From Bacteroidota bacterium (GTDB lineage: Bacteria > Bacteroidota > Bacteroidia > UKL13-3), in contig JAIXWD010000006.1 in NCBI GenBank assembly GCA_027482225.1, positions 124,001 to 188,000 of the forward strand: a stretch of DNA of 64,000 nucleotides, read 5' to 3'. Below, piece by piece: positions 1-44,700 of the stretch; positions within the stretch are counted from its first letter, which is position 1; each line of letters starts with the position of its first letter. The notes beneath the pieces are model-generated. The model ran no database searches. It was not told the DNA's origin and saw only the letters and a list, made by a program, of their open reading frames with translations. The translations under genes were made by a program, and so were the position numbers.

Positions 1-1073
1 TTATTATTACTGTATTGCGCTACCTTTCCTGTGCTTGTAGTGAGAATTTCTGCCAACGTAGTAGAACCTCCAAAGCCCGGGGTAAAATTACTTTCTGTAG
101 CATTGGTATACGTATCACTAAAAATGGACTTCACATCAGCTTGTGGGCGAGTAGGGGTTGGTGCATTTACTAAATCTCCTTTGCAATCTATAGTTAATTT
201 GCCTTTTGCCGCAACACCATTAACAGTAGCAGTAATATCTGTTATTCCAATTTCTAATACGGTTACCACGCCATTATCATCAACTTTTGCAATTTTAGGG
301 TTAGAACTTGTAAATGTAAAATAATATGATGAGGAAAGTACTTTTACATCTTGTCCAGTAACCAAATTAAACGTATTACTTACGCCTGTTATGTTAATGG
401 TTGAACCAATAAACGCCTTGACGGTGCTTGTTTTTCCATCAAAAATATTAGGAGATGGTGTACCTACATTACCTAGTTTTTCAAACTTTATTTCATCAAA
501 CCAAAGTGCATAACCTAAACCATTGGTGCCCTGAGTTCCCGCTGCAAACCAGAACATGCCTCTTTCATTTGTTAGTTTAGAGGGATCAGGAATTGGGATA
601 ATTATTTTAGTCCAATTGGTTCCTACATTCACATTTTGAATAGAAACCCTGTTTTTATCTCCAAGATAGTCGATTCCAAAACCCACATCGCCTAGTTTTA
701 CCCCAGTAGATGCCTTTACATAAAAAGTTAGCGCATCATAACCTGTAAGATTCCTCCCTGCACCATCAATTCTAAAAATCGCCCCCGCATAAGTACCTGT
801 TGGATCTGTATTATTGGGTACATCAATTCTTATGGAGGCATTACTTTCAAAACCTTCCTTTGTATCTACTGAAAATACATCCGGTTTTGCGTCTGCGAAC
901 GGAAAATAAAAATTTGAGCCTAAACCGATAAAGTTATCCGTAAAAATTGCAGCTGTTTTTGCAAAAGTGGGTAATACGGCATCATCAGATAACTTTCTTT
1001 CGCATCCCAATTGAAGAATTAAAGTGGCAGATACGATAAATATAATCTTAGTTCTTTTACCTAGAGTATTCAT
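1..1073 (-). CDS. Surface lipoprotein with glycan-binding-like and Ig-like (BIG2) domains, 3' end cut by window
   Basis: I translated this by hand from the ATG at 1073; 357 codons are open to the window edge and no stop is reached. The N-terminus is a lipoprotein signal: basic start, hydrophobic stretch, then QLGC with the probable lipidated Cys24. Residues of about 40-215 form a beta-rich domain resembling galactose-binding-like carbohydrate modules (YDALTFYVKAS, later ALWFDEIKFE). About 225-305 looks like a BIG2 Ig-like domain (SSNPKIAKVDDNGVVTV). After a Pro/Thr linker a second binding-like domain begins at IFSDTYTN, a start also seen in beta-glucan-type polysaccharide-utilisation proteins. 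The gene lies 32 bp downstream of the glycosidase on the same strand, so the two are probably one operon of a polysaccharide-utilisation locus. Family memberships come from memory of the motifs. The missing C-terminus could hold a GH16 or other catalytic domain. Confidence 0.75.
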   Translation of the reverse strand, partial: MNTLGKRTKIIFIVSATLILQLGCERKLSDDAVLPTFAKTAAIFTDNFIGLGSNFYFPFADAKPDVFSVDTKEGFESNASIRIDVPNNTDPTGTYAGAIFRIDGAGRNLTGYDALTFYVKASTGVKLGDVGFGIDYLGDKNRVSIQNVNVGTNWTKIIIPIPDPSKLTNERGMFWFAAGTQGTNGLGYALWFDEIKFEKLGNVGTPSPNIFDGKTSTVKAFIGSTINITGVSNTFNLVTGQDVKVLSSSYYFTFTSSNPKIAKVDDNGVVTVLEIGITDITATVNGVAAKGKLTIDCKGDLVNAPTPTRPQADVKSIFSDTYTNATESNFTPGFGGSTTLAEILTTSTGKVAQYSNN

Positions 1074-1105: not shown

Positions 1106-4100
1106 TTAGTTGTTAATATTTATTTGGATATAAGTGCGTATTTCCCATTCGTTGCCGTTCGGGAATCCAATCGCATTAGGGTTTGGTACGTATTGTCCTA
1201 AACTATTCATTGATAAGATAGGAGAGTACCTATTAGAGTATCTGTTTAACGTACGATAGGTTCCTCTTATACCAATTTTACTTCCTGGCATCATAAACCA
1301 ATCAGGTTTACTTACTTCAAATGACCAATCCCCAATTAGCTGAAGTGGGAATGTTTGGTTAAAATCTCTGTGGTAATCAAATGGTCCCCAATCATCAATT
1401 TTTGCAATCGTCATTAGTTTCATTTTACGGTATATAGTTCTAACGTCAATTCCATATCTTTTGATTGTCCTGGTATCACTGCCATTTGCTTGCCCATTAC
1501 CAAAATATACATTACTAATAAAACCCAATTCGGAATTCACTTTAGAAACTATCCTTGCATTAAATTCCCATAAGTCTTGAGCAGGTGCAGAGCCAGGAAA
1601 CACAAATGTGGTACGGCCATTCCCAAGTATACCAATAGCGGCATCTTGTAAAGTTGGAAGATGACGATATACAAATCCAGTACTCATTGCAAACTTGGCA
1701 TCTTCCATCCTATCATTATCCCACTCATACATCCAAGTTGCAGGTGTAGGATCATAGCTAAGTAAAATTTCACCAGCCATTGTTTCTCTATTTCCTCTTA
1801 CAGAAAAAGGATCGTCTAGGATATTTCTTGGTCGAGCAGGCGCTACAAAATTAGGCCCAATTGGACCCACTAACGGTTTCTGATATAAGAAATTAGGTGC
1901 AACTTGTAACTTACCTATGTTATAGGTAAATCCAGTAAGCGCATTATACATATTTCCGCTTCCTACATCCTTTAGTATCCAACCTGTAAAGGTTTTGGTT
2001 TGATCAACTCCTCCATTAGCTACCAACCCCATATAAGATGCAAGGCCATACCAATTTAATGGTCCAATAGAATAGGTAAGTTTTAATTTTCCTCCCAAAT
2101 TATCGGTACTTTTTATCTTATCTTCATACACTTCATTATTCTCAATCATTTGGAATGCTCTACCATTAAGTGGCTGTCCACCCCAAATTCCACCTAAATT
2201 AAATGAGAATTTTTCCATTTTCTTACCTAATACCAGAGTCAATCTTCTGGTTTTAGGAATTGGAACCGCAAAAGAGCTTTGCAGATTTGTTCGCTGAACA
2301 ATATCTTCATGGAAAATACTGGTAACATCTATACCTGCTAAGTTTTTGCTATATTTTAATAGTAATGCAGGGTTAGCACCCCACCATAATTCAGGACCAA
2401 AAGCAGCTTTTAAACCTTTGAATTTTTTCTTTCCTTCAATTTCAAAACCAAAAGGTGCATTACCGTTGTAAATGTCAATATTAGGACCATAGTTAGCTTC
2501 TGGATATAATGCAAAAAAATCACCCTCATATCCCCAATGGTAATGGCCTGTTCTGTAAAAACCCGTCAATTTGAAATCTCTTGCATCCCAACTGTAACTC
2601 GCTTTATACAATTGTAACCTATTGTTATCATTAATTTGTTGTGGGCCATTTGGTGTTGAAATGATTAAAGGCCTTCCTCTATTTTCATAAAATATCTCAT
2701 CAATTGGTTTTGTAGCCACATTTCCTAAAACATTGAACTGAACATTTGCCATCACATTAGGAGCAGGTCTTGCTGTTATTCCAATATTAAAAGACTCCAT
2801 GTTATCAAAACCTTGGGCACTTGGAAAGGTTGTTGGATTAGAAGAATTAGCAACTTTAGGGGTTGTAATAAGACTTCCACCAGTGTAGTAGGTATTAAAG
2901 TTAGCTTGTAAGTTACTTACATATAACTTACCCTTATCTTTAGACTCTAACATGGCCTTATCACCCCTAGCTTTTAGATTAAAGTCAGCTACAGAAACAG
3001 CATTGAATAAAGTATTTATAGAAGTAAGTGTCTCGTTGTATGGATTAATTTTGTGTATGTTTTGTAATGCATAATATGCTGCCCTAGGATACAGTTCGTA
3101 ATTTCCTCTTTCATTTGTTTGACCTTTAGCACAAATTCCAAACCATTCTTCATTCATGTTGTTTTCACCGCGCACAAAGTCATTCGTGTATCCACCATTA
3201 GACCAAGATGCAGTAACATCATGTTCATCTAAATTTAAGGTTTGCCCAGTTTTCCACCATCCATCACTGAATTGAAATGTGAAGCCTCCTATACTATTCT
3301 CATTTTTCCCGAGCCTTGCAGCATTTTCATATATTTCTTTCCAATTACTTAGCAACACCTTCGCTTGGTAATCTTGGTCTTCTTTATTAGATACGGTGTT
3401 GTATGCATCAGACCCAAATTCGGTGAGCAAAACAGGCATGTTAAGTTCCTTTTTAATTCGTCCGTATAAATCAGTAAATGTAATTCCCCTATAGCAATTT
3501 ATTCCGAGAATATCAACATCCTTACACTCTTTGGCAATGATTTCGGAAAACAATAAATCACCATTACAAATAGCTATCGGATGGTTTTGGTCTATCGCTT
3601 TTAACTCTTTCGCTGCATCATTAAAAAGGCTATACAAATGGTAAGCACCCTTCGTTGATTTTCTATCTGCGAATGGAACATTTTCTGTTTCCGCACCTCT
3701 CCAAAAAAGGCCATAGTTATTCTCGTTACCCAATAAAAATAATAAGATACCTGGGGTTCCTTTGTATTGCGTAACCATTTCTTTGGTTTCTTTCAATAAC
3801 TGCTCCCTAACAAGCGGATTAGCATAATCTGTGTTGGGTTCCCATTTTCCGTTTATAGTCAAACCATATCTACCAAAAGAGTGATTAAGCATGGTGTAAA
3901 TACCATAGTTTTCGTAGATATACTTTATCCATCTTGCCGGTACACCACTATATTGTCTGATAACATTTACCTTCATGTTCTTTAGCAGCGACATTTCATT
4001 GTCTAAAGCAGCTATAATCAAATCGTCCGATTGATTCCATAAACTATAATTGTAGTTTTTTCCAATTGGAAAATAATCCCAATTCATCCCATTGATGAAG

Positions 4101-4225
4101 GTCTCTTTTTCGTTTATTTTAAGTATATAACCATTACCTGATTGAACAACTTGCACTTTATCGTTTTGTGCAGATGCAAAAACAGGTAACAGGCATAAAA
4201 AATATCTAAGGATTTGTTTTTTCAT
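1106..4225 (-). CDS. Secreted glycosidase (clan GH-A-like TIM barrel) fused to a probable outer-membrane beta-barrel
   Basis: The 1039-residue protein starts with a Sec signal peptide (cleavage near FASA-QND, residue 19/20). Residues of about 35-385 look like a clan GH-A TIM barrel as in GH2/GH5 enzymes. The acid/base is probably Glu168 in LLGNENNYG, and the nucleophile probably Glu269 in LLTEFGSDAYN; their spacing of 101 residues fits a retaining enzyme. From about residue 475 to the end the sequence changes to amphipathic strands rich in Tyr, Trp, Phe and Gly, separated by Asn/Gly/Pro turns (FKLTGFYRTG, LNWYGLASYMG, WEIRTYIQININ). That pattern is typical of an outer-membrane barrel. Family members with this arrangement sit in Bacteroidota polysaccharide-utilisation loci, so beta-glucan is a reasonable substrate guess, but the sequence does not fix it. 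The last residue is Asn, not the usual Phe/Trp of a barrel protein. Confidence 0.8.
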   Translation of the reverse strand: MKKQILRYFLCLLPVFASAQNDKVQVVQSGNGYILKINEKETFINGMNWDYFPIGKNYNYSLWNQSDDLIIAALDNEMSLLKNMKVNVIRQYSGVPARWIKYIYENYGIYTMLNHSFGRYGLTINGKWEPNTDYANPLVREQLLKETKEMVTQYKGTPGILLFLLGNENNYGLFWRGAETENVPFADRKSTKGAYHLYSLFNDAAKELKAIDQNHPIAICNGDLLFSEIIAKECKDVDILGINCYRGITFTDLYGRIKKELNMPVLLTEFGSDAYNTVSNKEDQDYQAKVLLSNWKEIYENAARLGKNENSIGGFTFQFSDGWWKTGQTLNLDEHDVTASWSNGGYTNDFVRGENNMNEEWFGICAKGQTNERGNYELYPRAAYYALQNIHKINPYNETLTSINTLFNAVSVADFNLKARGDKAMLESKDKGKLYVSNLQANFNTYYTGGSLITTPKVANSSNPTTFPSAQGFDNMESFNIGITARPAPNVMANVQFNVLGNVATKPIDEIFYENRGRPLIISTPNGPQQINDNNRLQLYKASYSWDARDFKLTGFYRTGHYHWGYEGDFFALYPEANYGPNIDIYNGNAPFGFEIEGKKKFKGLKAAFGPELWWGANPALLLKYSKNLAGIDVTSIFHEDIVQRTNLQSSFAVPIPKTRRLTLVLGKKMEKFSFNLGGIWGGQPLNGRAFQMIENNEVYEDKIKSTDNLGGKLKLTYSIGPLNWYGLASYMGLVANGGVDQTKTFTGWILKDVGSGNMYNALTGFTYNIGKLQVAPNFLYQKPLVGPIGPNFVAPARPRNILDDPFSVRGNRETMAGEILLSYDPTPATWMYEWDNDRMEDAKFAMSTGFVYRHLPTLQDAAIGILGNGRTTFVFPGSAPAQDLWEFNARIVSKVNSELGFISNVYFGNGQANGSDTRTIKRYGIDVRTIYRKMKLMTIAKIDDWGPFDYHRDFNQTFPLQLIGDWSFEVSKPDWFMMPGSKIGIRGTYRTLNRYSNRYSPILSMNSLGQYVPNPNAIGFPNGNEWEIRTYIQININN

Positions 4226-4954: not shown

Positions 4955-6286
4955 CTATAACTTCACTAGCTCACCTGTTAACCTCAATAATTCGGTTTCG
5001 TTTATTTGTGCTTCATATTGGGCGTTTAGTAATCGGATTTGGCTGTTTAGTAAGTTTAGTTGTGCATCGCGCAACTCAATACTGGTAATCACCCCAACTT
5101 TATATTGCTCGTTGGCTATATCTAAGTTTTCTTTCGCAACTTTTTCGTTCTCTTTTTCAAATGAAATTAACTGTATACTCAACAAATAATTGTTGTAGGC
5201 ATGTTGCACTTGGTTTTGTAAACGGGTTAAAGAGTCTTTATAAATTAACTCATTCGATTTTAAATATAAACGTGCATTTTGTAAACGTTGCTTTACATCA
5301 AAACCATTATATAAATTAATACTTAAACCTGCTCCGTAATGAAAACCATTATTTTGTGCCGATTGTAAAAATCCAGCTTCAGATTGTTGGCGATTATAGT
5401 TATAACCACTTCTTAGCTGTATGCTTGGCATACGTTCGGCTTCAATTTCTTTCACACTTAATAAACTAATTTGTTGATTTTTTTTCGTAATCATTAAGTT
5501 GGTGTTTTGTCCATTTATTTTATTAAGTAAATCATCCAATTTATATGTTTTAGGTTCGGGTATATTTTCTGATATCGTATAGCTCACATTCAAATCTCTA
5601 CCCAATAATTGGTTTAAATTGGTTAGTGTATTTTTGTAATTGTTTTCTTGACGCATTAATTCTGCTTTATCGGTATTTAAATCAACCTGCGCTTTTAACA
5701 TTTCTGTTTTAGCACTTTTACCTGCTTTATATTTTTCAGCAGCAAGTTCTAATCTTTTTTCGCTGATTTTAAATGCATCTCGGTTTGAAGCAAGCTGTTG
5801 TTTGGCCAACAATACATCATAATATGCTTTGGTAACACGCATAAAAATTTGCTCAATATTACTGCGCATTTTTAGCTCACCCACTTGTTGTAATTCTTCC
5901 AAGCGGTTTTTAGCAGCAAACATTTTAAAGCCATCAAAAATAGTCCAGCCTAATTCTATGTTTGCATTTAAGTTATTACTTTTGGCACCATCACGGTTGT
6001 TTTCTGCTCCACTTAAAAACTTTTGTCGGGTATCTATAACTTGGTTGTCTTGGTTAATTGTACCTGTTACTGTAGGTAACATCCCTGCAGCTCCTAGTCT
6101 ATTGTTATTGGAGTTAATTGCTGCATCATTTTTAGCTACTTGAATGGCATAGTTGTTTTCTAATGCCATTTTTAATGCTTCACTTAATGTAAGTACTTGC
6201 TGGGCCGAAATGTTGCTAATACTGAATATTAACGCAAGTAAAAAGTTCAAGTGTTTAATTTGTTTATATCTACTAATCAAATTCAT
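4955..6286 (-). CDS. TolC-family outer-membrane efflux protein
   Basis: The 443-residue protein has a signal peptide (cut near ISAQQ) followed by the TolC/OEP pattern: LSEALKMALENNYAI at the start of the first repeat, long alpha-helical coiled-coil segments, and a second repeat after about residue 220 (EKENEKVAKENLDIANEQYKVG). It would form the trimeric outer-membrane channel of the tripartite pump encoded immediately upstream. It is the last gene of the marR-adaptor-RND-tolC run, separated from the RND gene by 70 bp that contain a CACAG-type repeat. The family is clear. The exported substrate is not predictable. Confidence 0.9.
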   Translation of the reverse strand: MNLISRYKQIKHLNFLLALIFSISNISAQQVLTLSEALKMALENNYAIQVAKNDAAINSNNNRLGAAGMLPTVTGTINQDNQVIDTRQKFLSGAENNRDGAKSNNLNANIELGWTIFDGFKMFAAKNRLEELQQVGELKMRSNIEQIFMRVTKAYYDVLLAKQQLASNRDAFKISEKRLELAAEKYKAGKSAKTEMLKAQVDLNTDKAELMRQENNYKNTLTNLNQLLGRDLNVSYTISENIPEPKTYKLDDLLNKINGQNTNLMITKKNQQISLLSVKEIEAERMPSIQLRSGYNYNRQQSEAGFLQSAQNNGFHYGAGLSINLYNGFDVKQRLQNARLYLKSNELIYKDSLTRLQNQVQHAYNNYLLSIQLISFEKENEKVAKENLDIANEQYKVGVITSIELRDAQLNLLNSQIRLLNAQYEAQINETELLRLTGELVKL

Positions 6287-6310
6287 CTTATCTGTTTTTA
6301 TATTTTAAGG

Positions 6311-6339
6311 TTAACGCAGAGACGCAGAGTTCGCTGAGT
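6311..6339. repeat. Dispersed CACAG/CGCAGAG-type repeat copy
   Basis: Between the RND and TolC genes lies a segment reading AACGCAGAGACGCAGAG then TTCGCTGAG. It matches 22 of 26 positions of the unit at 57568-57593 by eye. Such CACAGAG/CGCAGAG strings recur between genes in Bacteroidota; their function is not known to me. Confidence 0.5.
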
Positions 6340-6356
6340 TGTTGTTACTTACTTTT

Positions 6357-9300
6357 TTAGTTTTCATCATTAGCTGCGTACATTTTTTCGCGGATGTTAC
6401 CAAGTGATAAAAAACTGTAAACAGCAGGGATAACATACAAGGTTAAAAATCCTGAGAAAACCAATCCACCAATAATTACAATACCCAACGATATGCGACT
6501 AGTAGCTGCATCTCCAAGCGCTAGCGCAATTGGTAGTGCACCTAATATAGTTGCTAAACTTGTCATTAAAATTGGGCGTAACCTTGAAACGGCAGCTTGT
6601 TGAACTGCTTCTATTTTACTTAAGCCTTCTTCTCGTTTTTTATTGGCAAATTCAACTATTAAAATCCCATTTTTAGTTACCAAACCAAGTAATACAATAA
6701 TTCCAATCTGACTAAAAATGTTCAAGGTTTGATCAAAATACCAAAGTGAAATTAAAGCCCCTGCCAATGCCATTGGAACAGTAAGCATAATGATAATTGG
6801 GTCAATAAAACTTTCGAATTGTGCCGCTAACACTAAATACACCAATATCAAAGCAAATAAAAACGCAAAAGTTGTATTTGATGAACTTTCAGAGAAGTCG
6901 CGTGATGGACCACTTAAATCTGTAGTAAATGATTCATCTAAAACTTTTTCTTTAATTGCATCCATTGCTTTTATTCCATCACCAATCGTTTTTCCTGGTG
7001 CTAACCCTGCAGTAACTGTAGCAGATTTATACCTATTATAATGGTATAATTGTGGTGGACTGCTTTGTTCAACAACATTAACAACGGCATCTAGTTGAAT
7101 TAATTCGCCTTTGTCATTCCTAACATATAACGATTTCAAATCCATTGGCTCATCACGATTTTCTCTGTTAACCTGTCCAATTACTTGGTATTGTTTTCCT
7201 TTCATGCTAAAGTAACCATAACGTATTCCACCGTAGGTAAGCTGTAATGTTTGTGCAATTTGTTGAACGCTAATTCCAACTGCTTTTGCCTTTTCTCTAT
7301 CAATTTCAATAACCAATTCGGGCCTATTAAATTTGAGGTTCACATCCATACCTTGGAAGGTGGGATTTTTATTTGCCTCATCCAAAAACTTAGGTAAAAA
7401 TTCTTGTAGTTTACTGAAATCTTGGTTTTGTAAAATATATTGTACCGGTAATCCAGCACGTGATCCTCCGCTACCATTTATGGTTTGATCTTGAATAACA
7501 AATGACCGAGCTTCTGTCATGCTGCCTACCGTTTTTTGGATAGATTGTGCAATTTGTTGTTGTGAGCGATTGCGCTCGTTAGGTTCTGTTAAAAATATAC
7601 GTGTAAAACCAGTATTTACCGCACCACTTCCAATAAAACCTGGCGCTACTACGGATAGTAAAACATGTTTCTCTGGTGTTGAATCAATAACCATTTGCGC
7701 AACCCTATCCATGTAGTTTTCCATGTATTCGTATGATGCTCCTTCAGGCGCAGTGGAAGCAATGCGCATGACACTTCTATCTTCTAATGGAGCTAATTCG
7801 GATTGTATAGTTGAACCAATTAAAAATATTACTCCAACAGATGCGATTACAATTACTATAGACCACCATCTTTTTTTCATGAACTTTCGTAAGGAGTTGT
7901 TGTAGACGTTATTTAAACCAACAAAAAATGGTTCAGTTAAAACGTAAAATTTAGAATGCTTATGGTTTTTACGCTGCAGTTTTACATTGAGCATGGGGGT
8001 TAATGATAGGGATACAAATGCCGATATTAAAACTGCTCCTGCAACTACAACACCAAATTCACGGAATAACCTTCCAACAAAACCATCTAAGAATATGATG
8101 GGTAAAAACACCACCGCTAAGGTGATTGAAGTGGAAAGTACAGCAAAGAAAATTTCGTTAGAGCCCTTAATGGCCGCTTCGCGTGGACTCATACCTTCTT
8201 CCATTTTTTTAAAAATGTTTTCAGTTACTACAATGCCATCATCAACCACCAAACCAGTAGCAAGTACAATTGCCAATAGGGTTAAAATATTAATGGAGAA
8301 TCCAAAAATGTACATGATAAAAAATGCACCAATTAATGAAACTGGAATATCAATTAATGGGCGGAATGCAATAAGCCAATCACGGAAAAACAGGTAGATG
8401 ATAAGTACCACCAATAAAAATGCAATCAATAATGTTTCGCCAACTTCGGTAATTGACTTGCGAATAAATTTGGTATTATCTAATGCAATATCCAATTTAA
8501 TATCATCAGGAACATCATTTTTAATTTGATCGTATCTGCGGTAAAATTCATCGGCAATATCAATGTAATTTGCACCTGGTTGAGGTACTAAAGCTAAGCC
8601 AATCATGGGTACTTTGCTTTCTTTCAGGATGGTTTGTTCGTTTTCTGCACCTAAAATGGCATAACCAATATCTCGTAGTCGAATGGTTTTATTGTTTACT
8701 GATTGAATGATGATGTTGTTAAATTCCTCTTCGGTAGAAAACCGCCCAACTGTTTTTACGGATAACTCCGTATTGTTCCCTTCAATTTTACCACCTGGCA
8801 ACTCTACATTTTCTCGTTCTAATGCCAATTTAACATCTAGTGGAGTTAATTTAAAAGATGACAGTTTTATTGGGTCGAGCCACAAACGCATGGCATAACG
8901 TTTTTGCCCCCAAATTTGTATTGTACTTACACCTGGTATGGTTTGCAATTTTTCCAATAAAACATTCTCGGCATAATCGTTTACTTCTAAATGCTTTTTG
9001 GTTGTGCTTTGCACAGTAAGTGTTAAAATCGCATCAGAGTTAGCATCCGCTTTTGCCACAACTGGTGGAGCATCAATATCCTGAGGCAATTGCCTTACTG
9101 CTTGTGAAACTTTATCACGCACATCATTCGTTGCTGCTTCTAAATCTTCACTTAAGCCAAACTCAACTGTAATTACACTACTACCTTGATTACTTGCCGA
9201 TGAAATGGAACGAATACCTGCTATGCCGTTTATAGCTTTTTCTAATGGCTCGGTAATTTGCGATTCGATAATATCCGGATTCGCACCCGTGTAATTGGTT

Positions 9301-9443
9301 CTTACTGTAATAACAGGTGGGTCAATAGAAGGGTACTCGCGTACACCCAAAAAATTAAATGCAATGGCTCCAAAAAGCAAAATGATAATTGACATTACTG
9401 TTGCTAATACAGGCCTATTTATACTTGTTGTACTTAAACTCAT
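6357..9443 (-). CDS. RND efflux transporter permease (HAE1/AcrB family)
   Basis: The 1028-residue length is normal for the HAE1 family. It begins MSLSTTSINRPVLATVMSII (TM1), followed by the conserved periplasmic start REYPSIDPPVITV. TM4 carries the proton-relay aspartate pair in ATGLVVDDGIVVTENI, with the GSNEIFFAVLSTSITL segment after it. The second half repeats the architecture and contains LVTKNGILIVEFAN and RLRPILMTSLATILGALP. It is a proton-driven inner-membrane pump for drugs, dyes or other amphiphiles, assembled with the adaptor (9534-10577) and TolC (4955-6286) proteins. The gap to the adaptor gene is 90 bp. The MarR gene heading the run suggests induction by a small molecule. Confidence 0.95.
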   Translation of the reverse strand: MSLSTTSINRPVLATVMSIIILLFGAIAFNFLGVREYPSIDPPVITVRTNYTGANPDIIESQITEPLEKAINGIAGIRSISSASNQGSSVITVEFGLSEDLEAATNDVRDKVSQAVRQLPQDIDAPPVVAKADANSDAILTLTVQSTTKKHLEVNDYAENVLLEKLQTIPGVSTIQIWGQKRYAMRLWLDPIKLSSFKLTPLDVKLALERENVELPGGKIEGNNTELSVKTVGRFSTEEEFNNIIIQSVNNKTIRLRDIGYAILGAENEQTILKESKVPMIGLALVPQPGANYIDIADEFYRRYDQIKNDVPDDIKLDIALDNTKFIRKSITEVGETLLIAFLLVVLIIYLFFRDWLIAFRPLIDIPVSLIGAFFIMYIFGFSINILTLLAIVLATGLVVDDGIVVTENIFKKMEEGMSPREAAIKGSNEIFFAVLSTSITLAVVFLPIIFLDGFVGRLFREFGVVVAGAVLISAFVSLSLTPMLNVKLQRKNHKHSKFYVLTEPFFVGLNNVYNNSLRKFMKKRWWSIVIVIASVGVIFLIGSTIQSELAPLEDRSVMRIASTAPEGASYEYMENYMDRVAQMVIDSTPEKHVLLSVVAPGFIGSGAVNTGFTRIFLTEPNERNRSQQQIAQSIQKTVGSMTEARSFVIQDQTINGSGGSRAGLPVQYILQNQDFSKLQEFLPKFLDEANKNPTFQGMDVNLKFNRPELVIEIDREKAKAVGISVQQIAQTLQLTYGGIRYGYFSMKGKQYQVIGQVNRENRDEPMDLKSLYVRNDKGELIQLDAVVNVVEQSSPPQLYHYNRYKSATVTAGLAPGKTIGDGIKAMDAIKEKVLDESFTTDLSGPSRDFSESSSNTTFAFLFALILVYLVLAAQFESFIDPIIIMLTVPMALAGALISLWYFDQTLNIFSQIGIIVLLGLVTKNGILIVEFANKKREEGLSKIEAVQQAAVSRLRPILMTSLATILGALPIALALGDAATSRISLGIVIIGGLVFSGFLTLYVIPAVYSFLSLGNIREKMYAANDEN

Positions 9444-9533
9444 TTTTTAATTTTTAGAGGTAAAGATTAGCTGTTAGTTTCTTCTGTTTTTGTAATTTTT
9501 ATTTGAGTTTATTCAGAAGAAGATTATTTATGA

Positions 9534-10577
9534 TTAACGCCTTATTTTAGCACCATTACGTAAATACATTACTCCCTCAACTACTACTTCATCTCCAGCT
9601 TTTAAGCCTTCCGTTACTTCAATTACATCATCTTTACGTACGCCTGTTTTTACTTTACGTTCTATAACACTATCGCCTTGTGCAACATATACTTTTTGTC
9701 CTTTTAAAATTGGTACAATAGCTTGAGTTGGTATCAAATAAGCATTTGTGTTTGTTGATGCAACTATTGATACTTTAGCAAAAGATCCTGGCAAAATTTC
9801 TTGTTTAGGATTAGCACAGATGGCACGCATAATTACGTTTCGTGTTACGTCATCAATTTTTGGTTCTATAGCATAAATTTTTGCCTGCAGTTGTTTTTTA
9901 CCTTCTGTAGTAAACAAGACGATACTTCCTTTTTGTATTGTGTTAGCATATTTTTCAGGCACAGAAAATTCTACTTTAATTTGATTAATATTTTGTAACG
10001 CAGCAATTCGAGTTGTTGGTGTTACATAACTGCCTTCACTAATGTTTCGTAATCCTATTACTCCATTAAATGGTGCCCTTATTTCTGTTTTTCTTATTTG
10101 TTCTTTTAATAAATCTATATCAGCATTTATACTGCTTAATTCAGTAGAGGCAATGTCATATAATTCATTACTTATTGCTCCCTTTTCTAATAAAGTTTTA
10201 TTTCGCTTTTCTGTGTCTTCTTTAAGTTTTTTTGTAGCCGTTGCTTTTTTAAGTTGAGCTTGTAAATCGCTGTCGTTTATTTTTAAAAGTAGTTCTCCCT
10301 TTTTTACTTGTGCACCTTCTGCGAAGTTAATTTTAACAATTCTTCCTTGCGTTTCTGGGTATAGCACCACTTCTTCATCTGCCATTATGTTTCCAGTTGT
10401 TTCTATTTTTCTTTCACTTGCCATTTGTTCAACCAATAATGTATTTACCTTAGTGGGTATGTTTTTTTTGCTTGCGTTAGGTGCTTGTACATTTTGATTC
10501 GGTTTTAGTTTAGGCCAAGCCAATAAGCCTAAAATAACCACTCCGAAAATTATGTAAATGATATCCTTCTTTTTCAT
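9534..10577 (-). CDS. RND efflux periplasmic adaptor (HlyD/MexH-like membrane fusion protein)
   Basis: The protein has 347 residues. An N-terminal membrane anchor (IIYIIFGVVILGLLAW) is followed by a lipoyl/biotinyl half-motif (GRIVKINFAEGAQVKKGELL), then a short helical hairpin. The second lipoyl half (EIRAPFNGVIGLRNISEGSYV) and beta-barrel and membrane-proximal domains ending in GLKAGDEVVVEG come next. It bridges the RND pump and the outer-membrane channel. It starts 2 bp after the marR stop, so the two are almost certainly co-transcribed and probably translationally coupled. There is no lipobox, so it is probably anchored by the N-terminal helix. Confidence 0.93.
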   Translation of the reverse strand: MKKKDIIYIIFGVVILGLLAWPKLKPNQNVQAPNASKKNIPTKVNTLLVEQMASERKIETTGNIMADEEVVLYPETQGRIVKINFAEGAQVKKGELLLKINDSDLQAQLKKATATKKLKEDTEKRNKTLLEKGAISNELYDIASTELSSINADIDLLKEQIRKTEIRAPFNGVIGLRNISEGSYVTPTTRIAALQNINQIKVEFSVPEKYANTIQKGSIVLFTTEGKKQLQAKIYAIEPKIDDVTRNVIMRAICANPKQEILPGSFAKVSIVASTNTNAYLIPTQAIVPILKGQKVYVAQGDSVIERKVKTGVRKDDVIEVTEGLKAGDEVVVEGVMYLRNGAKIRR

Positions 10578-10579
10578 AG

Positions 10580-11068
10580 CTATTTATTTTTTTGTACCGA
10601 TATGTTACTTGTTACATCGGATAAATTGTTATCCATCCTATTCATCAATTCTATAAATATTTTTTTTTCCTCAGCACTAAACCCGTTAAAAGCTAATCTG
10701 TTTAGTTGACTAAATGTGGTTTCAATTTTGGGTGCCAACTTGATGCCTTTTGAAGTTGCAGATATAAGGTATGCTCTTCTATCTTCATTATGTGGGTTCC
10801 TTTTTACAAGGTCTTTTTCTGTAAGGTAATCTATTATTCTAACCATAGTAGCCTTGTCTATTTGTAAACAGTTAGCCAAGCATTGTTGTGTTATTTCTTG
10901 ATGTTTACAAATCAATCCCAATACATAAAAATAGCGGTCTAAATCAGTATCACATAATTCTTGTTCTGCAGCATGATCATACTTTTTATACAGCATGTTA
11001 AACAGCAAACTCAATGGGCTCTCTTTCGACTCGAACGGATTTATCTTGTTTTTTTGAGTTGGTAACAT
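10580..11068 (-). CDS. MarR-family transcriptional regulator of the efflux operon
   Basis: This is a winged-helix MarR protein of 162 residues. The core includes LGLICKHQEITQQCLANCL and the recognition segment DKATMVRIIDYLTEKDLVKR, followed by the wing NPHNEDRRAYLISATSKG, all typical of the family. The ORF stays open to a TTG at 11110, but that codon lies inside a palindrome. The ATG at 11068 gives the normal MarR length and sits 4 nt after a TATGTTTG box, so I chose it. The inverted repeat at 11093-11115 is the expected operator. The regulator probably represses its own operon, and a ligand (possibly a pump substrate) would release it. Confidence 0.88.
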   Translation of the reverse strand: MLPTQKNKINPFESKESPLSLLFNMLYKKYDHAAEQELCDTDLDRYFYVLGLICKHQEITQQCLANCLQIDKATMVRIIDYLTEKDLVKRNPHNEDRRAYLISATSKGIKLAPKIETTFSQLNRLAFNGFSAEEKKIFIELMNRMDNNLSDVTSNISVQKNK

Positions 11069-11072
11069 TTTG

Positions 11073-11080
11073 CAAACATA
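11073..11080 (-). promoter_or_regulatory. -7 box of the marR-efflux operon
   Basis: The minus strand reads TATGTTTG, a full match to the Bacteroidota -7 consensus TAnnTTTG. Only 4 nt separate it from the ATG at 11068, implying a leaderless or nearly leaderless mRNA. No good -33 TTG is found at the usual distance. Confidence 0.45.
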
Positions 11081-11092
11081 ATTGAAAATGCA

Positions 11093-11115
11093 AATAGTTG
11101 ATAAAATCAACTATT
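11093..11115. promoter_or_regulatory. MarR-type operator: perfect 10-bp inverted repeat
   Basis: The arms AATAGTTGAT and ATCAACTATT are perfectly complementary and are separated by AAA, giving a 23-bp dyad. Size, symmetry and AT-rich centre match MarR-family sites. It lies 13 bp upstream of the marR -7 box, where a dimer would block RNA polymerase. It is also 98 bp upstream of mnmE, which reads the other way. Confidence 0.7.
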
Positions 11116-23323: not shown

Positions 23324-26300
23324 ATGGAAAATAAAAATAAATACTGGAAAGGTTTAGAGGAACTAAATAACGACCCTAAATTTCTTCAAAATAAAAGAAA
23401 TGAATTTGCAGAAGGTATCCCGTTAGAGGAAGTACTAACCGAAAAAGACGGTGAGTTAACCTCAAACAGACGTGACTTCTTGAAGTACTTCGGTTTCGGT
23501 ATATCAGCTGTTGCATTAGCTGCTTGTAACAAAGCTCCTATCAAAAATGCAATTCCATACATTGTTAAGCCTGAGAATATCACTCCGGGTATTCCTAATT
23601 GGTACGCATCAACTAACCCTGCAACAGGTGTTAGCGTGTTGGTAAAAACTCGTGAAGGTCGTCCGGTAAAAATTGAAGGTAACCCTGAGTCTCCTTTATT
23701 TAAAGGAGGTGTTGGTGCTTTTGATCACGCTTCTGTATTAGAATTATACGATAACGAGCGTTTACAAGGTCCTAAAGCTGAAGGCAACGAAGTTGATTGG
23801 AACACATTAGATGGTAAAATCACAAAAGGATTAGCAGCCGCAAAAGGTATTCGCATTATTTCGGGTGCTGTTAATAGTCCTTCAACGAAAAAAGCTATTG
23901 CCGAATTTTCAGTTAAATATCCGCAAACCAAGCACATTGTATATGAACCAGTATCATATAGCGCTATTATAGAAGCAAATGGTCAATCTTTTGGTAAGGC
24001 TGTTATTCCAGGATACCAATTTGATAAAGCAAAAACCATTGTAAGTTTTGGTGCCGATTTTTTAGGAACTTGGATATCTCCAGTAGAATTCACCAAACAG
24101 TGGGTTAAAAACCGTAAAGTTGGCACAACTAATAACGGTGCTAAAACCATGAGCCGTCATTATCAGTTTGAATCTAATCTTTCATTAACTGGTTCGAACG
24201 CTGACGTTCGTGTTCCATTAAAACCAAGTGCAACCAGTGTTGCTTTAATTAGTTTGTATAATAAGATAGCTTCTTTGGCTGGTGCAGCAAAATTATCATC
24301 ACCTGGTGATGTTGAATTTGCGGTGAATATGATTGAAAATTCAGCTAAAGAACTTTGGGCTAACCGTGGTGCCTCTATTGTAGTTTGCGGTACAAATAAT
24401 GTTGCTGATCAATTAATAGTTAATGCCATTAATAGTGTTTTAGGCAATATTGGCACAACTGTAGATTTAGATAATTACAGTAACCAAACAGGTGGTAACG
24501 ATGCTGCATTTGAAACGTTTGTAAATGAGTTAAACAGTGGTGCTGCAGATGTAGTTATATTCTTCAACTCAAATCCGGCATACAATTATTATGCTGCTGA
24601 TAAATTAATATCAGGTATTAAGAAAGCTACCGTTTCAATAAGTACAAATAGTGTTGCAGATGAAACTACAGCATTATGTAAATTCCATGCACCTGATAAT
24701 CATTTCTTGGAATCATGGGGTGACGTTGAAACGCGTGTAGGTTTTATTGGTTTAATGCAACCAACTATTTCTCCAGTATTCAATACCCGTCAAGCATCTG
24801 AAAGTTTTTTACGTTGGTCAGGCAACTTTACTGATTACTATACTTTTGTTAAAAATAATTGGACTGCTGCACTAGGTGGCGAAGCAGGTTGGAACAAAGC
24901 GTTGCATGATGGTTTTACTTCATCAATGAAAACCCCAGTTGCTTATACAACTAGTGTACTACCTCAAGATGCTGTTAATACCGCATACAAAGCATACACT
25001 TCAAATAAAGATAAAGTAGAATTAAGCTTATACACTAAAGTAGGTTTGGGTGATGGTCGTTATGCAAACAATCCTTGGTTGCAAGAAATGCCTGATCCAG
25101 TATCAAAAGTATGCTGGGATAACTATGCAGCTATTGGTAAAGTAACTGCTGATAAGCTAAACTTAAAAGACGGTGATGTAATTACCATAAAAACTAAAAC
25201 AGGGGTTATTGAAAAAATTCCTGTGTTGGTTCAACCGGGTCAAGCTCGTGATACGATTTCAATAGCCCTAGGTTATGGTCGTACAGCAGGTGGTCGTGTA
25301 GGAGCTAATGTTGGAAAAAATGCTTATACAGCAGTTAGTTTCAATGGTAAAACATTTGTATACACTGCTGCTGATGTTTCTGTTGAAAAAACAGGTAATG
25401 GATACGAATTACCACAAACACAAACTCATCATACTATAGAAGGTCGTGATATTATTCGTGAAGCTTCATTAGGCGAATTTGTTAAAGATCCTAAAGCAGG
25501 CAATCATAAACATGCACATATTATTACATTATGGGATGAGCATGATAGCAAAGGTCACCGTTGGGCAATGGCAGTAGACTTAAACTCATGTACCGGTTGC
25601 GGTTCATGTGTGGTAAGTTGTAATGCAGAAAACAACGTTCCTGTAGTTGGTCGTCAAGAAATATTAAACAGCCGCGAAATGCACTGGATGCGTATTGATC
25701 GCTACTACAGCTTTAAAGATGAAAAAGGCAATAAATTAACCCGCGAAGCCGGTTTAGCTAGTAACATGTTAAAAGGTAAAGACGAGGGATTAATTAATGA
25801 CGAGACTGATTTTGAAAACGTACGCGTAGCATTCCAACCATTAATGTGTCAACACTGCGGTCATGCTCCATGCGAAACTGTTTGTCCGGTATTAGCAACT
25901 GTACATAGCACTGAAGGTTTAAACCATATGGCTTACAATCGTTGTGTTGGTACACGTTATTGCGCAAACAACTGCCCATACAAAGTAAGACGTTTCAACT
26001 GGTTTAAATACCGTGAAAACGATCAGTTTGATTTCTATATGAACAATGATTTAGGTCGTATGGTTATCAATCCTGATGTTACAGTTCGTTCTCGTGGTGT
26101 GATGGAAAAATGTTCATTCTGTATCCAACGTATACAGGCAGGTAAATTACAAGCAAAATTAGAAAACCGTAAAGTTAAAGACGGTGATGTTAAAACAGCT
26201 TGTCAACAATCTTGCCCTGCAGATGCAATTATATTTGGTGATGTAAACGATAAAAACAGTGAAATCGCTAAGTTATTTAACAACGAGCGTAGCTATGTAT

Positions 26301-26476
26301 TGTTAGAAGAGTACAACGTACAACCTTCTGTATCATACATGACAAAAATCCGAAATGTAGACGAAGAGTTAGCTGGTGGACACACTACTCACTCAACAAC
26401 TGCTCCGGGTCATGCAGGACACGAAGAAACTAAACATGATACAGCTGCTCATGCTAATGCAGAACACGCTCATTAA
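23324..26476 (+). CDS. actB: Alternative complex III subunit ActB, TAT-variant molybdopterin-like/ferredoxin fusion
   Basis: The 1050-residue protein is the fused ActB1-ActB2 form. A TAT-variant signal (NRRDFLKYFGFGISAVALAAC) ends in a lipobox, so the Cys is probably lipidated. The middle is a molybdopterin-oxidoreductase-like fold that in this family carries no Mo cofactor. The C-terminal third is ferredoxin-like, with four Cys clusters: CTGCGSCVVSC (from Cys756), CQHCGHAPCETVC, CVGTRYCANNC and CSFC...CQQSC. These normally hold three [4Fe-4S] and one [3Fe-4S]. A His-rich tail ends the protein. It is the electron-transfer arm of the complex in the periplasm. Confidence 0.95.
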   Translation: MENKNKYWKGLEELNNDPKFLQNKRNEFAEGIPLEEVLTEKDGELTSNRRDFLKYFGFGISAVALAACNKAPIKNAIPYIVKPENITPGIPNWYASTNPATGVSVLVKTREGRPVKIEGNPESPLFKGGVGAFDHASVLELYDNERLQGPKAEGNEVDWNTLDGKITKGLAAAKGIRIISGAVNSPSTKKAIAEFSVKYPQTKHIVYEPVSYSAIIEANGQSFGKAVIPGYQFDKAKTIVSFGADFLGTWISPVEFTKQWVKNRKVGTTNNGAKTMSRHYQFESNLSLTGSNADVRVPLKPSATSVALISLYNKIASLAGAAKLSSPGDVEFAVNMIENSAKELWANRGASIVVCGTNNVADQLIVNAINSVLGNIGTTVDLDNYSNQTGGNDAAFETFVNELNSGAADVVIFFNSNPAYNYYAADKLISGIKKATVSISTNSVADETTALCKFHAPDNHFLESWGDVETRVGFIGLMQPTISPVFNTRQASESFLRWSGNFTDYYTFVKNNWTAALGGEAGWNKALHDGFTSSMKTPVAYTTSVLPQDAVNTAYKAYTSNKDKVELSLYTKVGLGDGRYANNPWLQEMPDPVSKVCWDNYAAIGKVTADKLNLKDGDVITIKTKTGVIEKIPVLVQPGQARDTISIALGYGRTAGGRVGANVGKNAYTAVSFNGKTFVYTAADVSVEKTGNGYELPQTQTHHTIEGRDIIREASLGEFVKDPKAGNHKHAHIITLWDEHDSKGHRWAMAVDLNSCTGCGSCVVSCNAENNVPVVGRQEILNSREMHWMRIDRYYSFKDEKGNKLTREAGLASNMLKGKDEGLINDETDFENVRVAFQPLMCQHCGHAPCETVCPVLATVHSTEGLNHMAYNRCVGTRYCANNCPYKVRRFNWFKYRENDQFDFYMNNDLGRMVINPDVTVRSRGVMEKCSFCIQRIQAGKLQAKLENRKVKDGDVKTACQQSCPADAIIFGDVNDKNSEIAKLFNNERSYVLLEEYNVQPSVSYMTKIRNVDEELAGGHTTHSTTAPGHAGHEETKHDTAAHANAEHAH

Positions 26477-38700: not shown

Positions 38701-41700
38701 TTATTCTTTAATCAACTTAGTTACCATTTCACTGCCACCAGCATCTACTTTAACAAAGTATATGCCAGGAGCCAAATGTTGTAATGAATCTACGCTAATC
38801 ATGTTATCACCTTTTACAACTTCACGTGCTATTTCTGCAACTGTTTTGCCGTATAGGTCAACAATAGTGATAATCGCCTTAGCATCCATATCAGCAGTTA
38901 CTTGAATACTTACGTTTGTATTAAATGGATTAGGGTAAACATTTACAGCTGGTTTTGTTCTTTCTTCGAAAGATACAGCCACAATAGGAGAGTACTCAAA
39001 CTTACCGTCAGCATCAACAATGCGTAAGCGGTAATAAACAGTTTTACCCATTGCAACTCTGCTAATATTTACATCAGTAAATTGATAGCTATTGCTAATA
39101 GAAGAGTTACCTGTGGCCCTAACCGAACCTGCAATTTCAAATCTATTACGGTCCATAGAACGCTCAATCACAAATTGAGAAGCATTGCGTTCACTTGCCG
39201 TAATCCAATTTAATTGTGCATGAGTATTTGCCTTAACTGCACGTAAGTTGGTTAACTTCACAGGAAGTGGGGTACCAATATCGCTTGTTCCTGTGAATGA
39301 TGTTGCTTCAAATAAATTGTTCATACCAAAAACATTAGCAACAGTATCAATAAAACTCATGGTACTATTGTTAAACCACCAGCTATAAAGGCCTGAAGTC
39401 ATTCTGTTCGCAAACTTAATATCTGTTTCAGTAGGCACTTTTCCCATTTGAAATGGCTTGTATTTCAAACGTAGGTCATAGGTAAATCCTACACCACCAG
39501 TTTGATTTAATGTCCAAAACGCATCCATCAAATGTGCTGCAGTATCAATCATTGCGTTACTGTTCGGGCTAGTTGCTCTGTTGCTAATTAAAGTGCCAGG
39601 AGCAAATCTGAAATTGATACTTGTAGGTAGCGTGCCACTATAGCCCCAAATAATAGAACCAAGCGTATCTCCGAAGCTCACAAAATGTTGAGTATTACCA
39701 TACCCAATTGTTCCAGTTGTTGTTGCTGGAGTTGGAAGCACACTAGGAGTAAATTCGTAGGCTCCAATATCTGGTGCACCAGTTTCTACAGCAATACTTC
39801 TATTGTTGTTATTTATGTCTTTATTAAGGTCATAAACTTGTATTCCACGTCCATTTAATACCCAACTGTTTGCATTTGAAGCAAGTGGTGTTAAATTAGA
39901 TGCTGAAGTAAATGTTGGATCAGCCTGTAATGAATTTAGATCACTTGCCCCAAGAATTGCGCCTTTCGCATTTGTAAAGTTAGCTGGCGTATATGATATT
40001 CCATTCAAGAATAACAAAGTACTACCTGTTGTGTTATATACGTTATGGTCTAACTGTTGAATTGCATTTAATCCACTAGCATTAATAATACTTATTGCTG
40101 GGGATGAGCCTGCTTTTATAGCGTTGTTCATAAAGTACATTTGGGTAGCGCCAACTATGCTGCCACCTGCAGTTGAACCTCCGAAAGTTATAGCACCCAT
40201 AGTTGTTGATGTGCCAGTAGTTAGTGTATTTATACTGTTATTGAAAACGCGCATGTCCGAGCAACTTATAAGGTATAAAGGTGAAGCTGTTCCACCGTTA
40301 ACCATTATTGCATTACCATAAATTTTACTGCTTCCAACTTCCCCATATTGAGCATGCCCACTAATATAGAAACCATAATTAGATGGTTGGAATAACTTGT
40401 TGTATGCTATTTCACTATTGGTTGATAAACCTGAAATAAAAACGCCATAGAATGAAGCTGCATTTGGTGTAATTTCATTGTAACGTATTTTTTGATCGGC
40501 ACGGCTGGTTAAATAAAGTCCATAATAATATGGATTGGTTATTACATTCGAATCGATTTGGCAACGTTGAGAATAGTTATTAATGATATTTTGCCCACCT
40601 AAGAATACCGCCATACTTCCATTTAATAGGTTGTTATTCGCAATATTAATGTCTGTTGCATTTGTTCCTGATGCACCAAAAATTAATGCATTTGCATCAC
40701 TTGTTGTGGTTACATTCATACCTTCAACATTGTTGTTACGAATACGAATATTTGCAGAATTAATAGATCCTGCTAAGCCTAACTGAAATACACGACCATT
40801 TGTAGCATTTGTATTTCTAATGGTCATGTGTTCGAAGTTTACGAACTGTGTACCATTAAATGTAACCACATAGTTATTAGCAGCACTTGTTGGCCCAAAG
40901 CTTAATATAACATTATTGCGGTTAAGTGTTGTAGAGCGGAAAGTGATTCTGTTTAGTGTACTAACTCCTGGTATAATTCCAAAAGTTAACTGTTCGTTAT
41001 ATGTACCATTAGATACATCAAAGGTAACAGCACCAAGCGCACCACCACATTGAAGTGCGTTAATAGCATTATTGAAATTTGTAAAATTTCTTGGTCCTAC
41101 ACCTGAAGGATTAATGGTGTATACACCACTCATTCCTTGACAAATATTGAGGTTAAATGTATCATTTAACATGTTAGCATCAACACTTGTATTAGGTGAT
41201 GAAGTATAGGCTCTCATTAAAATACTACCTCCTGTGTAGTTAAACTGCTGGCTTGAAGCGCTTGTTCCTGAGGTGGCATTAAAAGTTACAGTATCTGTGC
41301 CATTAGGTAAAATTGAACCAGTGTATAATTGACTATGCGAAGTTGCACCTGAAACATAAGTAACATTAATAGAGGTTATGTTTGCAATACCATGGTTTCT
41401 AATAACAACCCTAACATCAGTTAAACCCGTGTCAACTGGTGCCTTAGGTAAAGCGAAAGAAATTACCCCTCCGTCATTTGCTGGTGGACTAAATTCACTC
41501 ACCCCAACATCTGGTGTTGTTGCACTGCGGGTATTTCCATCAATATCTGCTACAACCCAGGTATTTGGTTTACCTATATTGTTAAATGGTATAGTGGTTA
41601 ACCGAAGGTTATTAATACTAGTAAAACTTGGGTTTAAAAATATTGAGTTAGAGTCGTTTCCAATAGTAGGTAAGGTTTGCCAATTTGCAAACGTTTGTGT

Positions 41701-44700
41701 TATTTGGTTATTCGAGCGATATGGGTAGGTTCCTAATCCATAATAAACATTATTATTTATGGTCCAATTTAAACCAATTTGTGTGATTGGGAATAGTGCA
41801 CCTCCATCACCTATCCATGCACAATATCCTGCATTAGGGTTGTTAAAAACATTATTAATGACATCAACAGTATTATATAATGAAGCGTTATTACTAAACA
41901 AGTAGAACGTAGTAGCTGTTGAACTTCCAGAAGTAATATTTACAGCATTGTGGGCAAAAACTAATTGTGATGGGTAACCCATAAGTATACCGTATGCTGT
42001 ATTCGCTGCAGTGCCAATTTGAATCATGTTGTTTGAAATTACAGATTTATTTGTAAGCGAACCTTGAGGATAAATAGTATAAATTGCATAACCACCATTT
42101 TGTCCTGAGAATTCGTTTGCATTAATTACCATACCTTCTCCACTATAACTTATGTATAAGCCATAGCTAAAAGTTGGATTTTGTTTACCCCCTCCAATTA
42201 TTCTGTTACGTTCAAATAAACTTCTTTCAATACCGTTGAAATATGAAAAGAAGTAGTTTTGGTCAAAAAAGTATGAGTTCCTTATTCTATTTCCTGTTGA
42301 TCTAGTTGTATTAGGTGCCATCATTATTAATCCGTAGTATCCGCCAATAAATGAAGAACTATCTATAGATAATGCATTGGCATTTATAAATGTTGATGAT
42401 GTAGGGATGGTTGGTAAAGAGCTTACTTCAAATACATTTATTAGTGAAGAGATAGTATTAGATGTAACTATAAATACACATTTATTAAAAGATAAACTAT
42501 CAGCGCTATTACCAGATAATCCATTGATTTGAACAGCCACCGCAACTGTTGAGCCGGTATTAATAATTTTGAAGTTACTAAAAGAGATGTTATCAGAACC
42601 AGTTATTGAAATTGTAGACCTATCGTTTGGGGTTGATCCTGCATAAGTTATAATTGTATTTGATGAATCAGCACCAATAAAACTTAAACGATTACCTGAT
42701 CCTAAGCCTGAAATATTTGAGAAGCTTAGTTTTTCATTGTAAGTACCAGCTGATACATTCACGGTTACGTTTCCTGCAATACCGCAAGTTTGTATTAATT
42801 GCACAACTGCACCAATTGTTTGGAAATTACCATTGCCATTAGGTAAAGCAGGGTTTACTGTAAAATTACCACTTAATGGCGTGCAAAAAGTTTGTTGTAC
42901 AGTATCGTTAAAACGTAAAATATCTGTTGTTGAGTTGGGTGATGAACTCCAAGCCTTAAGTGTAAATAAGCCTGAATTTGCAAAGTTAAAAGTTCCCAAT
43001 GCGGCAGAAATAGTATCGTTGGTAATTAAATTCCCCGACCAACTTGCACTTGTTTGATTAACCCCATTTACCTGCCAATCAATATTGGCTGAGGACAATG
43101 TAGCGGTACCAAAGTTTTTAATTACTGCATTAACATTCTGAACCCCTAAATTTAAAGGCATTGTGGGTGATGAAAACCCAATTAAACCTGCATCATTAGG
43201 AGAAACATCAAATTTGTAAACACCAGGATCTGGCAATGAATCATGCGGTACGCCCATGATATCGGTAGGTACTATTGAGCGTATATCAGACCCAATGTTA
43301 TTTAAACTATCTGCCCCTGGTGTAAATGGAGCTGGTGTAAATGCTGTTCTAAAATTAGGATTAGCAAATACACTAAACGAATCAAGAGGATTTACCGTGT
43401 TCGCACTTCTCCATGCTGCAAGGTCTGTTCTATTTGTTGTATAGTAACCAACAAAGTTATTGGTACTACCTGTTGGGGTACCATAATGTAATCCATTATT
43501 TCTGTAGTCGTAGGTATTACCTGTTGCACCTATATACATTAAGTATTTACTACCGCTACCACCTCTGTTTACGTGGAAAATATTGTTACGAACCCTTTGG
43601 TATGTTACACTGCTTGTTGTAAAAAATGCATAGGTTGCAGAAGTTGTGGTTGCTTGTGGATAGTCAATACTAATGGTGTTGTGGTATAGTTGACTCTCAT
43701 TAACAATTTGCTGATAAATTCCATAAATGGTTCCACCACCTTTGATATCGGCAATTAAATTATTTCTAATAACAACTGGCCTATTGGTACCTTGTGCAAT
43801 TAATAAGTACATACCATAAAAAATATTGGTAGTTGATTGTAACATTTCAAATGGTTTGGTAATCTTATTGCCATCAAATGTATCTCCAGATAAATATACA
43901 AAGTTTATTCCGTAGAAAGTTGTTGGTGATGATTTGGTTGGACGTGAAATCTCATTATTTTTTATCATACTACCAGTAACACCATATGCATAAATACCAT
44001 ATAAAGTAAAGTCTCTAATGATGTTGTCTCTAATTACATATCCATTATTTGTACCATCTGTATTGTTTGCACAAGCAGATATACCGTAATATGGACCTCC
44101 GCTAGCATTACCTATTATGGTGTTACCTATAAAACGATTAAAAAAACTGGTATTTGATGCTATTCCAGTTGGGTTACTTAAACTGGATGTAACGGCAATA
44201 CCAGCTGAAAGTGAGCCTCCAGTTACTGATGATATATCAATGTTACAACCTAAAATACTGACATAATCAGCACCAGTTGCAATTAAATAACCAACACCAT
44301 TACTTACATTAAGCGATTTTACATGTAGTTGATTAAATGTAACATAGTCGGTTCCAATTACGTTGATGATACCAATTAAACCAGGATTGGTGTTATTAAA
44401 CTCAACACGGTTTCCGTTACCATTAAAGGTAATGGTATTTGTGGCACTTGCTCCTGGAATCGTTGCAAGAAATACCTGATTAACATATGGTCCTGAATTG
44501 GCAACAACATTAAAAGTTACTGCACCACCAATGCCTCCCATACTAATATAATCAGCAAGTCCACTTAACGAGGTAAAATTACTTGCACTTGCAGCTGCAC
44601 CTTGATTAACTGTATATACACCTCCAGGCAGTAAACAAGCCGTAGTTCTGCTCATGCTATTGTTGGTTGTATTAGATTCAGTGGTGTTATTTGGATTACT

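Follow-up and report, generated by a model that had tools for sequence, protein, structure and literature searches.

The window analysed here, a 64,000-nucleotide stretch of a contig from a Bacteroidota bacterium, carries near its left edge an open reading frame of 1039 codons that begins with ATG, contains no internal stops and encodes a secreted glycosidase joined, in the same chain, to a predicted outer-membrane beta-barrel. The gene heads a tight operon that runs out of the window leftward. The features discussed below are these:

1..1073, minus strand: next gene of the operon, coding for a 469-aa Big_2 lipoprotein of the glycan-binding type and extending past the left window edge
1106..4225, minus strand: whole gene, GH158-like glucanase/outer-membrane barrel fusion, 1039 aa (open reading frame and alignment)
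1115..2926, minus strand: predicted 24-stranded plug-less outer-membrane barrel, residues 434-1037 (AlphaFold2, fold matches, strand statistics)
2453..2554, minus strand: highly conserved, aromatic-rich long loop (HYHWGYEGDFF..YPEANYG), residues 558-591, mean conservation 0.94, predicted to be extracellular or in-folded
2942..3028, minus strand: linking helix between enzyme and barrel, residues 400-428 (AlphaFold2 models)
3041..4168, minus strand: catalytic domain, a clan GH-A (beta/alpha)8 barrel nearest GH158, residues 20-395 (sequence and fold search)
3419..3421, minus strand: Glu269, predicted nucleophile, in an EFG motif ending a core strand (265-270); invariant, by analogy with BuGH158 E220 (PMC7157763)
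3722..3724, minus strand: Glu168, predicted acid/base, in a G-N-E-N motif after a core strand (160-165); invariant, by analogy with BuGH158 N136/E137 (PMC7157763)
4169..4225, minus strand: predicted Sec signal peptide of signal peptidase I type, residues 1-19 (read from the sequence)

Elsewhere in the window, the genes upstream of the fusion on the same strand (4955-11110, minus) are look-alikes of an outer-membrane efflux protein, an RND transporter, a membrane-fusion protein and a MarR-type regulator; they look like an ordinary efflux operon, with a Pfam basis for the outer-membrane efflux protein gene only. At 23324-26476 (plus), within a gene row, a protein of 1050 aa that matches 4Fe-4S and, weakly, molybdopterin-binding domains looks like a member of an alternative complex III operon, and at 38701-46500 (minus) lies a giant secreted surface protein of 2599 aa that has CARDB and a type IX sorting tail, together with a weak match to a beta-helix.

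Relatives of the fusion were taken as the best 80 of 573 candidate stretches that passed a scan of genome contigs, and most of these best 80 cover the whole length of the query, with 60-88% identity. Across 77 aligned rows, N167, E168 and E269 never vary, and the mean column identity is 68% for the whole protein and 67% for the barrel half. Conservation over the full length at this level, together with the invariant glutamates, rules out a chance open reading frame and shows that neither the frame nor the fusion is a sequencing artefact: this is a real, conserved single-chain fusion protein. Its Sec-type signal peptide (MKKQILRYFLCLLPVFASA followed by Q; cleavage context ...VFASA/Q) agrees with the earlier note, which had called the glycosidase secreted. 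A lipobox scan of the family found none in the 77 aligned sequences, a Pfam scan of the fusion protein found no type IX sorting domain and an NCBIfam scan gave no match; upstream of the gene, no match to the Bacteroidete -33/-7 promoter was found.

The catalytic half lies nearest to the GH158 endo-beta-1,3-glucanases. A search of PDB sequences gave the GH158 enzyme 9oro as top match (phmmer E 2.8e-4), and a profile search against 9oro gave E 2.7e-4, which is significant but distant. Foldseek likewise placed GH158 first for the catalytic half (E 3.9e-14), followed by BuGH158 (6pal), and VIA-align gave a Z of 25.6 against GH158, with other clan GH-A families (GH2, GH5, GH157, GH35) so close behind in Z that the fold by itself cannot fix the family. 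The clan GH-A fold and the N-E and E catalytic residues (N167, E168, E269) are nevertheless all present, and the retaining-type TIM barrel with Glu168 and Glu269 that had been read from the letters alone is thereby borne out. In the models, a barrel occupies the position of the C-terminal Ig-like domain of BuGH158, which is absent; as that domain may not define GH158, we call the catalytic half GH158-like only, and do not regard it as a true GH2.

The C-terminal half was modelled with AlphaFold2. In the full-length model (pLDDT 75.6, pTM 0.58), helices at about 400-427 are followed by 24 long strands between residues 434 and 1037, and a barrel-only model is better (pLDDT 79.9, pTM 0.76); both models rest on shallow alignments of 77 sequences (mean column identity 67-68%), and some loops fall below pLDDT 50. 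Every PDB match that Foldseek listed for the barrel-only model is an outer-membrane barrel (MOMP, TonB-dependent receptors, OprC, OccAB3, AlgE, ScrY and OmpF), and VIA-align returned AlgE, OprD/Occ porins, MOMP and the 24-stranded ushers PapC and FimD, the nearest folds at Z 12-15 and the ushers aligning across nearly the whole model (about 350-370 residues within 35-645). With each solved barrel taken singly, the TM-scores are low, about 0.2-0.45, so this is a barrel of its own kind and no copy of a solved one. The two strand faces differ in hydrophobicity by 2.72, a value that none of 10,000 shuffles reached (shuffled strands give 1.44 +/- 0.22), and the strands of the TIM half have no such alternation of lipophilic and polar faces. 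From the strand number, the full-span usher matches and the strand-face statistics, we infer that the barrel is closed. A TonB plug was found neither by Pfam in the protein nor as a plug region in either model, and the barrel half has no match in Pfam, NCBIfam or PDB sequences. The predicted barrel has the features of a porin: amphipathic strands, an even number of them, and short turns along one side.

These results uphold the proposal that the long run of amphipathic beta strands forms an outer-membrane barrel; the soluble beta-sandwich array or missing barrel named in advance as refuting it is not what structure prediction gave, and searching the halves separately led to GH158 for one and, for the other, to no sequence family and listed fold matches that are all outer-membrane barrels. 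One boundary had to be moved, as the first strand begins at about residue 434 and not at 470, after a helix (400-428). Taken together, there is little doubt about the fusion and its barrel.

In outer-membrane barrels, the short turns face the periplasm. Here the connections between strands 1-2, 3-4 and so on average 23 residues, against 5 for those between 2-3, 4-5 and so on (Mann-Whitney p 3e-4), and nearly all of the length variation in the family sits in the long set; exceptions to the pattern are the short-side connection 16-17, with 21 residues, and three long-side connections of only 7-11. Given an even strand count, long odd-numbered connections and short turns facing the periplasm, both barrel ends and the attached enzyme would be periplasmic, a placement that strand parity and loop length make likely. 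Several long-side loops (558-591, 613-619, 733-758 and 947-957) are extremely conserved and rich in aromatics, which would fit a lid or a constriction that binds sugar; if such loops did not fold inward, a wide pore with no plug would leak.

After the fusion gene, the operon on this contig (C17) continues with the Big_2 lipoprotein, GH16, GH149, GH17, GH30 and MFS_2, and a NUDIX/NrtR-AraR-type regulator gene stands at its far end in the opposite direction; this order is largely kept across the best 80 loci and in more distant ones. The GH149 matches the beta-1,3-oligosaccharide phosphorylase structure 6hq6 (E 0) and the GH17 the solved GH17 6fcg (E 4e-172), while the GH16 matches many laminarinases and the GH30 glucosylceramidase-type GH30. 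Operon and fold together strongly indicate laminarin, a beta-1,3-glucan, as the substrate, and a role of the fusion protein in beta-1,3-glucan use is very probable. In Bacteroidota, an acidic export signal after the lipoprotein cysteine marks surface lipoproteins. Net acidity at this position is +1.8 for the glycan-binding protein and +0.8 for the GH16, against -0.6 each for GH17 and GH30, so that cutting would start outside the cell and end in the periplasm. Beside the NUDIX regulator, left of the window, a 604-aa frame (L111:1-1813, minus) is related to the glycan-binding lipoprotein and has a C-terminal stretch like a type IX sorting tail (PNPANNNF...); it is perhaps a secreted glucan-binding partner. 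A gene of about 940 aa that often lies upstream of the fusion in Flavobacterium was considered as a SusC and rejected, the one tested being a propeller/Y_Y_Y/LuxR-type regulator, which 41 open frames in the best 80 loci resemble.

The fusion occurs in 29 of 296 sampled genomes, about 10% of those sampled in the phylum. It is spread across Bacteroidota, and records under the labels Ignavibacteriota, Balneolota and Acidobacteriota gave matches as well; one full-length copy (L101) lies on a contig labelled Thermoanaerobaculia (Acidobacteriota), through either horizontal transfer or mis-binning. At another locus (L120; G298:C53:1-6000, 1271-4176), the gene is shortened and split into two frames and is followed by a 279-aa frame resembling an IS110-type transposase. 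Single-sequence and profile searches of the 296 genomes for the barrel without the enzyme found only the fusion, its fragments and one remnant. The enzyme without the barrel does occur: most barrel-less relatives are lipoproteins (G186, G167, G305), which suggests that the enzyme can also work lipid-anchored, and in G167 the gene directly follows SusC, SusD and GH16. In G182, the frame stops just past an intact catalytic domain and is followed by a remnant of the barrel, covering part of its first ~93 positions, which identifies this case as a barrel loss; with its signal-peptidase-I-type signal retained, the gene would yield a soluble enzyme in the periplasm. Barrel-less forms fall among fusion forms in the catalytic-domain tree, with three state changes to which the tree gives no direction.

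SusC and SusD are conspicuously rare in this setting. With SusC and SusD probes, a pair was seen near 1 of the best 80 loci (L102) and near 1 of 11 further fusion loci (L140), a total of 2 of about 90; this counts the visible cases, as only 47 of the 80 have 10 kb on both sides. Both exceptions belong to the same Flavobacteriaceae-rich clade of the catalytic-domain tree, and a SusCD pair beside the fusion is perhaps a transitional arrangement. In the host genome (99.9% complete, 2.7 Mb), neither a SusD (PF07980, PF14322) nor a SusC over the TIGR04056 cut-off was found, though 21 TonB-plug proteins are present. SusD is absent from 6 of the 29 fusion genomes in the 296-genome sample and present elsewhere in the other 23, so that as a rule only the locus lacks it, and in some cases the whole genome. 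The locus thus lacks the adjacent susC/susD pair by which SusCD-type polysaccharide utilization loci are defined, and the contrast that the earlier note drew with a lipoprotein-anchored glycosidase beside SusC/SusD holds.

On balance, we favour a two-domain outer-membrane protein for the uptake of laminarin. Surface lipoproteins (the GH16 and the glycan-binding protein) would release glucan fragments, and the 24-stranded plug-less barrel would provide their passage across the outer membrane. The GH158-like retaining endo-beta-1,3-glucanase, hanging by its helix on the periplasmic side, would cut the incoming chains, and periplasmic GH17 and GH30, the MFS importer and a cytoplasmic GH149 phosphorylase would process the products further. 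The fusion would in this way take the role usual for SusC/SusD plus a lipoprotein-anchored glucanase. That the barrel serves as a pore for uptake is moderately probable: no plug is visible and the operon has no other outer-membrane channel, which suggests an open pore coupled to the enzyme, and coupling of cleavage to uptake is plausible. The stronger claim of a distinct uptake architecture, with import pore and first periplasmic depolymerase in one polypeptide and without SusD or TonB plug, we put forward tentatively, at slightly less than an even chance.

Several other readings can be envisioned. The barrel might place the glucanase outside the cell in the manner of an autotransporter, as an anchor and not an import channel. 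The enzyme is indeed N-terminal to the barrel, as are the passengers of type V secretion, lipoprotein forms of it exist in relatives, and the GH158 enzymes of gut Bacteroides are predicted to be at the cell surface (PMC7157763). Set against this are both barrel ends on the short-turn side, the barrel-less G182 form, which with only a signal-peptidase-I-type signal would be periplasmic, and the missing type IX sorting domain. Known type Va and Vd autotransporter barrels have 12 and 16 strands, whereas 24 are predicted here. Surface display is accordingly unlikely; of the porin-like anchor with uptake or display proposed earlier, the barrel as replacement for a lipoprotein anchor is supported, and display is the part that has lost ground.

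Somewhat less likely still is that the barrel, closed by in-folded loops, merely tethers a periplasmic enzyme while a separate TonB-dependent transporter imports the glucan. One of the host's TonB-plug proteins could be that importer, the long loops, being so strongly conserved, could close off the lumen, and SusCD does stand beside the fusion at L102 and L140; yet it is near almost none of the roughly 90 loci, a lipid anchor such as relatives use would be a far cheaper tether than ~600 residues, and the barrel is conserved like the protein as a whole. An ordinary GH2 glycosidase with a soluble C-terminal beta region is very improbable and largely refuted. Its starting point is the sole Pfam match of the full protein, a weak Glyco_hydro_2_C (residues 74-277), which at 15.6 bits is below the gathering cut-off of 21 and is accompanied by no other GH2 domain, such as the N-terminal beta domains, in the Pfam scan; GH158 is nearest in both sequence and fold, and the alternating-face strands and listed PDB matches of the C-terminal half speak for a membrane barrel.

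The preferred reading, a laminarin-uptake protein, bears on a wider question. Few algal polysaccharides are as abundant as laminarin, and SusC/SusD is usually credited with taking it up in Bacteroidota. The SusC/SusD laminarin loci of Formosa, Polaribacter and Gramella (PMC6246565, PMC6298971) contain much the same enzymes (GH16/GH17/GH30/GH149/MFS), whereas here SusCD is rare and the fusion heads the operon. Kuhaudomlarp et al. described GH149 clusters with GH16/GH17/GH30 and without susCD, as here (PMC5827456); in the parts of that paper available to us, the outer-membrane component is unnamed and no obvious outer-membrane step is given, and the fusion is a direct, testable candidate for it. 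A Muricauda laminarin locus runs LuxR, GH2, GH16, GH149, GH17, GH30_1, MFS, and its "GH2 beta-glycosidase", with no membrane barrel mentioned in the portion consulted (PMC13188888), is probably the same protein as the fusion, by locus order and not by sequence. This "GH2" is the only apparent counterpart in the literature searched, which gave no description of a glycosidase-barrel fusion and had most subscription papers and all preprints outside its scope.

With the solved GH158 enzymes (BuGH158, 6pal; GH158(Pro), 9oro), its best sequence and fold match, the catalytic half shares the clan GH-A fold, the N-E acid/base, the second Glu as nucleophile and the laminarin setting, at only about 15-21% identity over the structural alignment. 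Its barrel is nearest in fold to AlgE, OprD/Occ porins, Wzi and the PapC/FimD ushers (Z 12-15), to none of which sequence similarity was found. To our knowledge, none of these carries a glycosidase. If the one-polypeptide uptake architecture is real, it would explain beta-1,3-glucan uptake in many Bacteroidota with SusCD-less laminarin clusters, and an enzyme-pore chimera would join the known types of outer-membrane protein.
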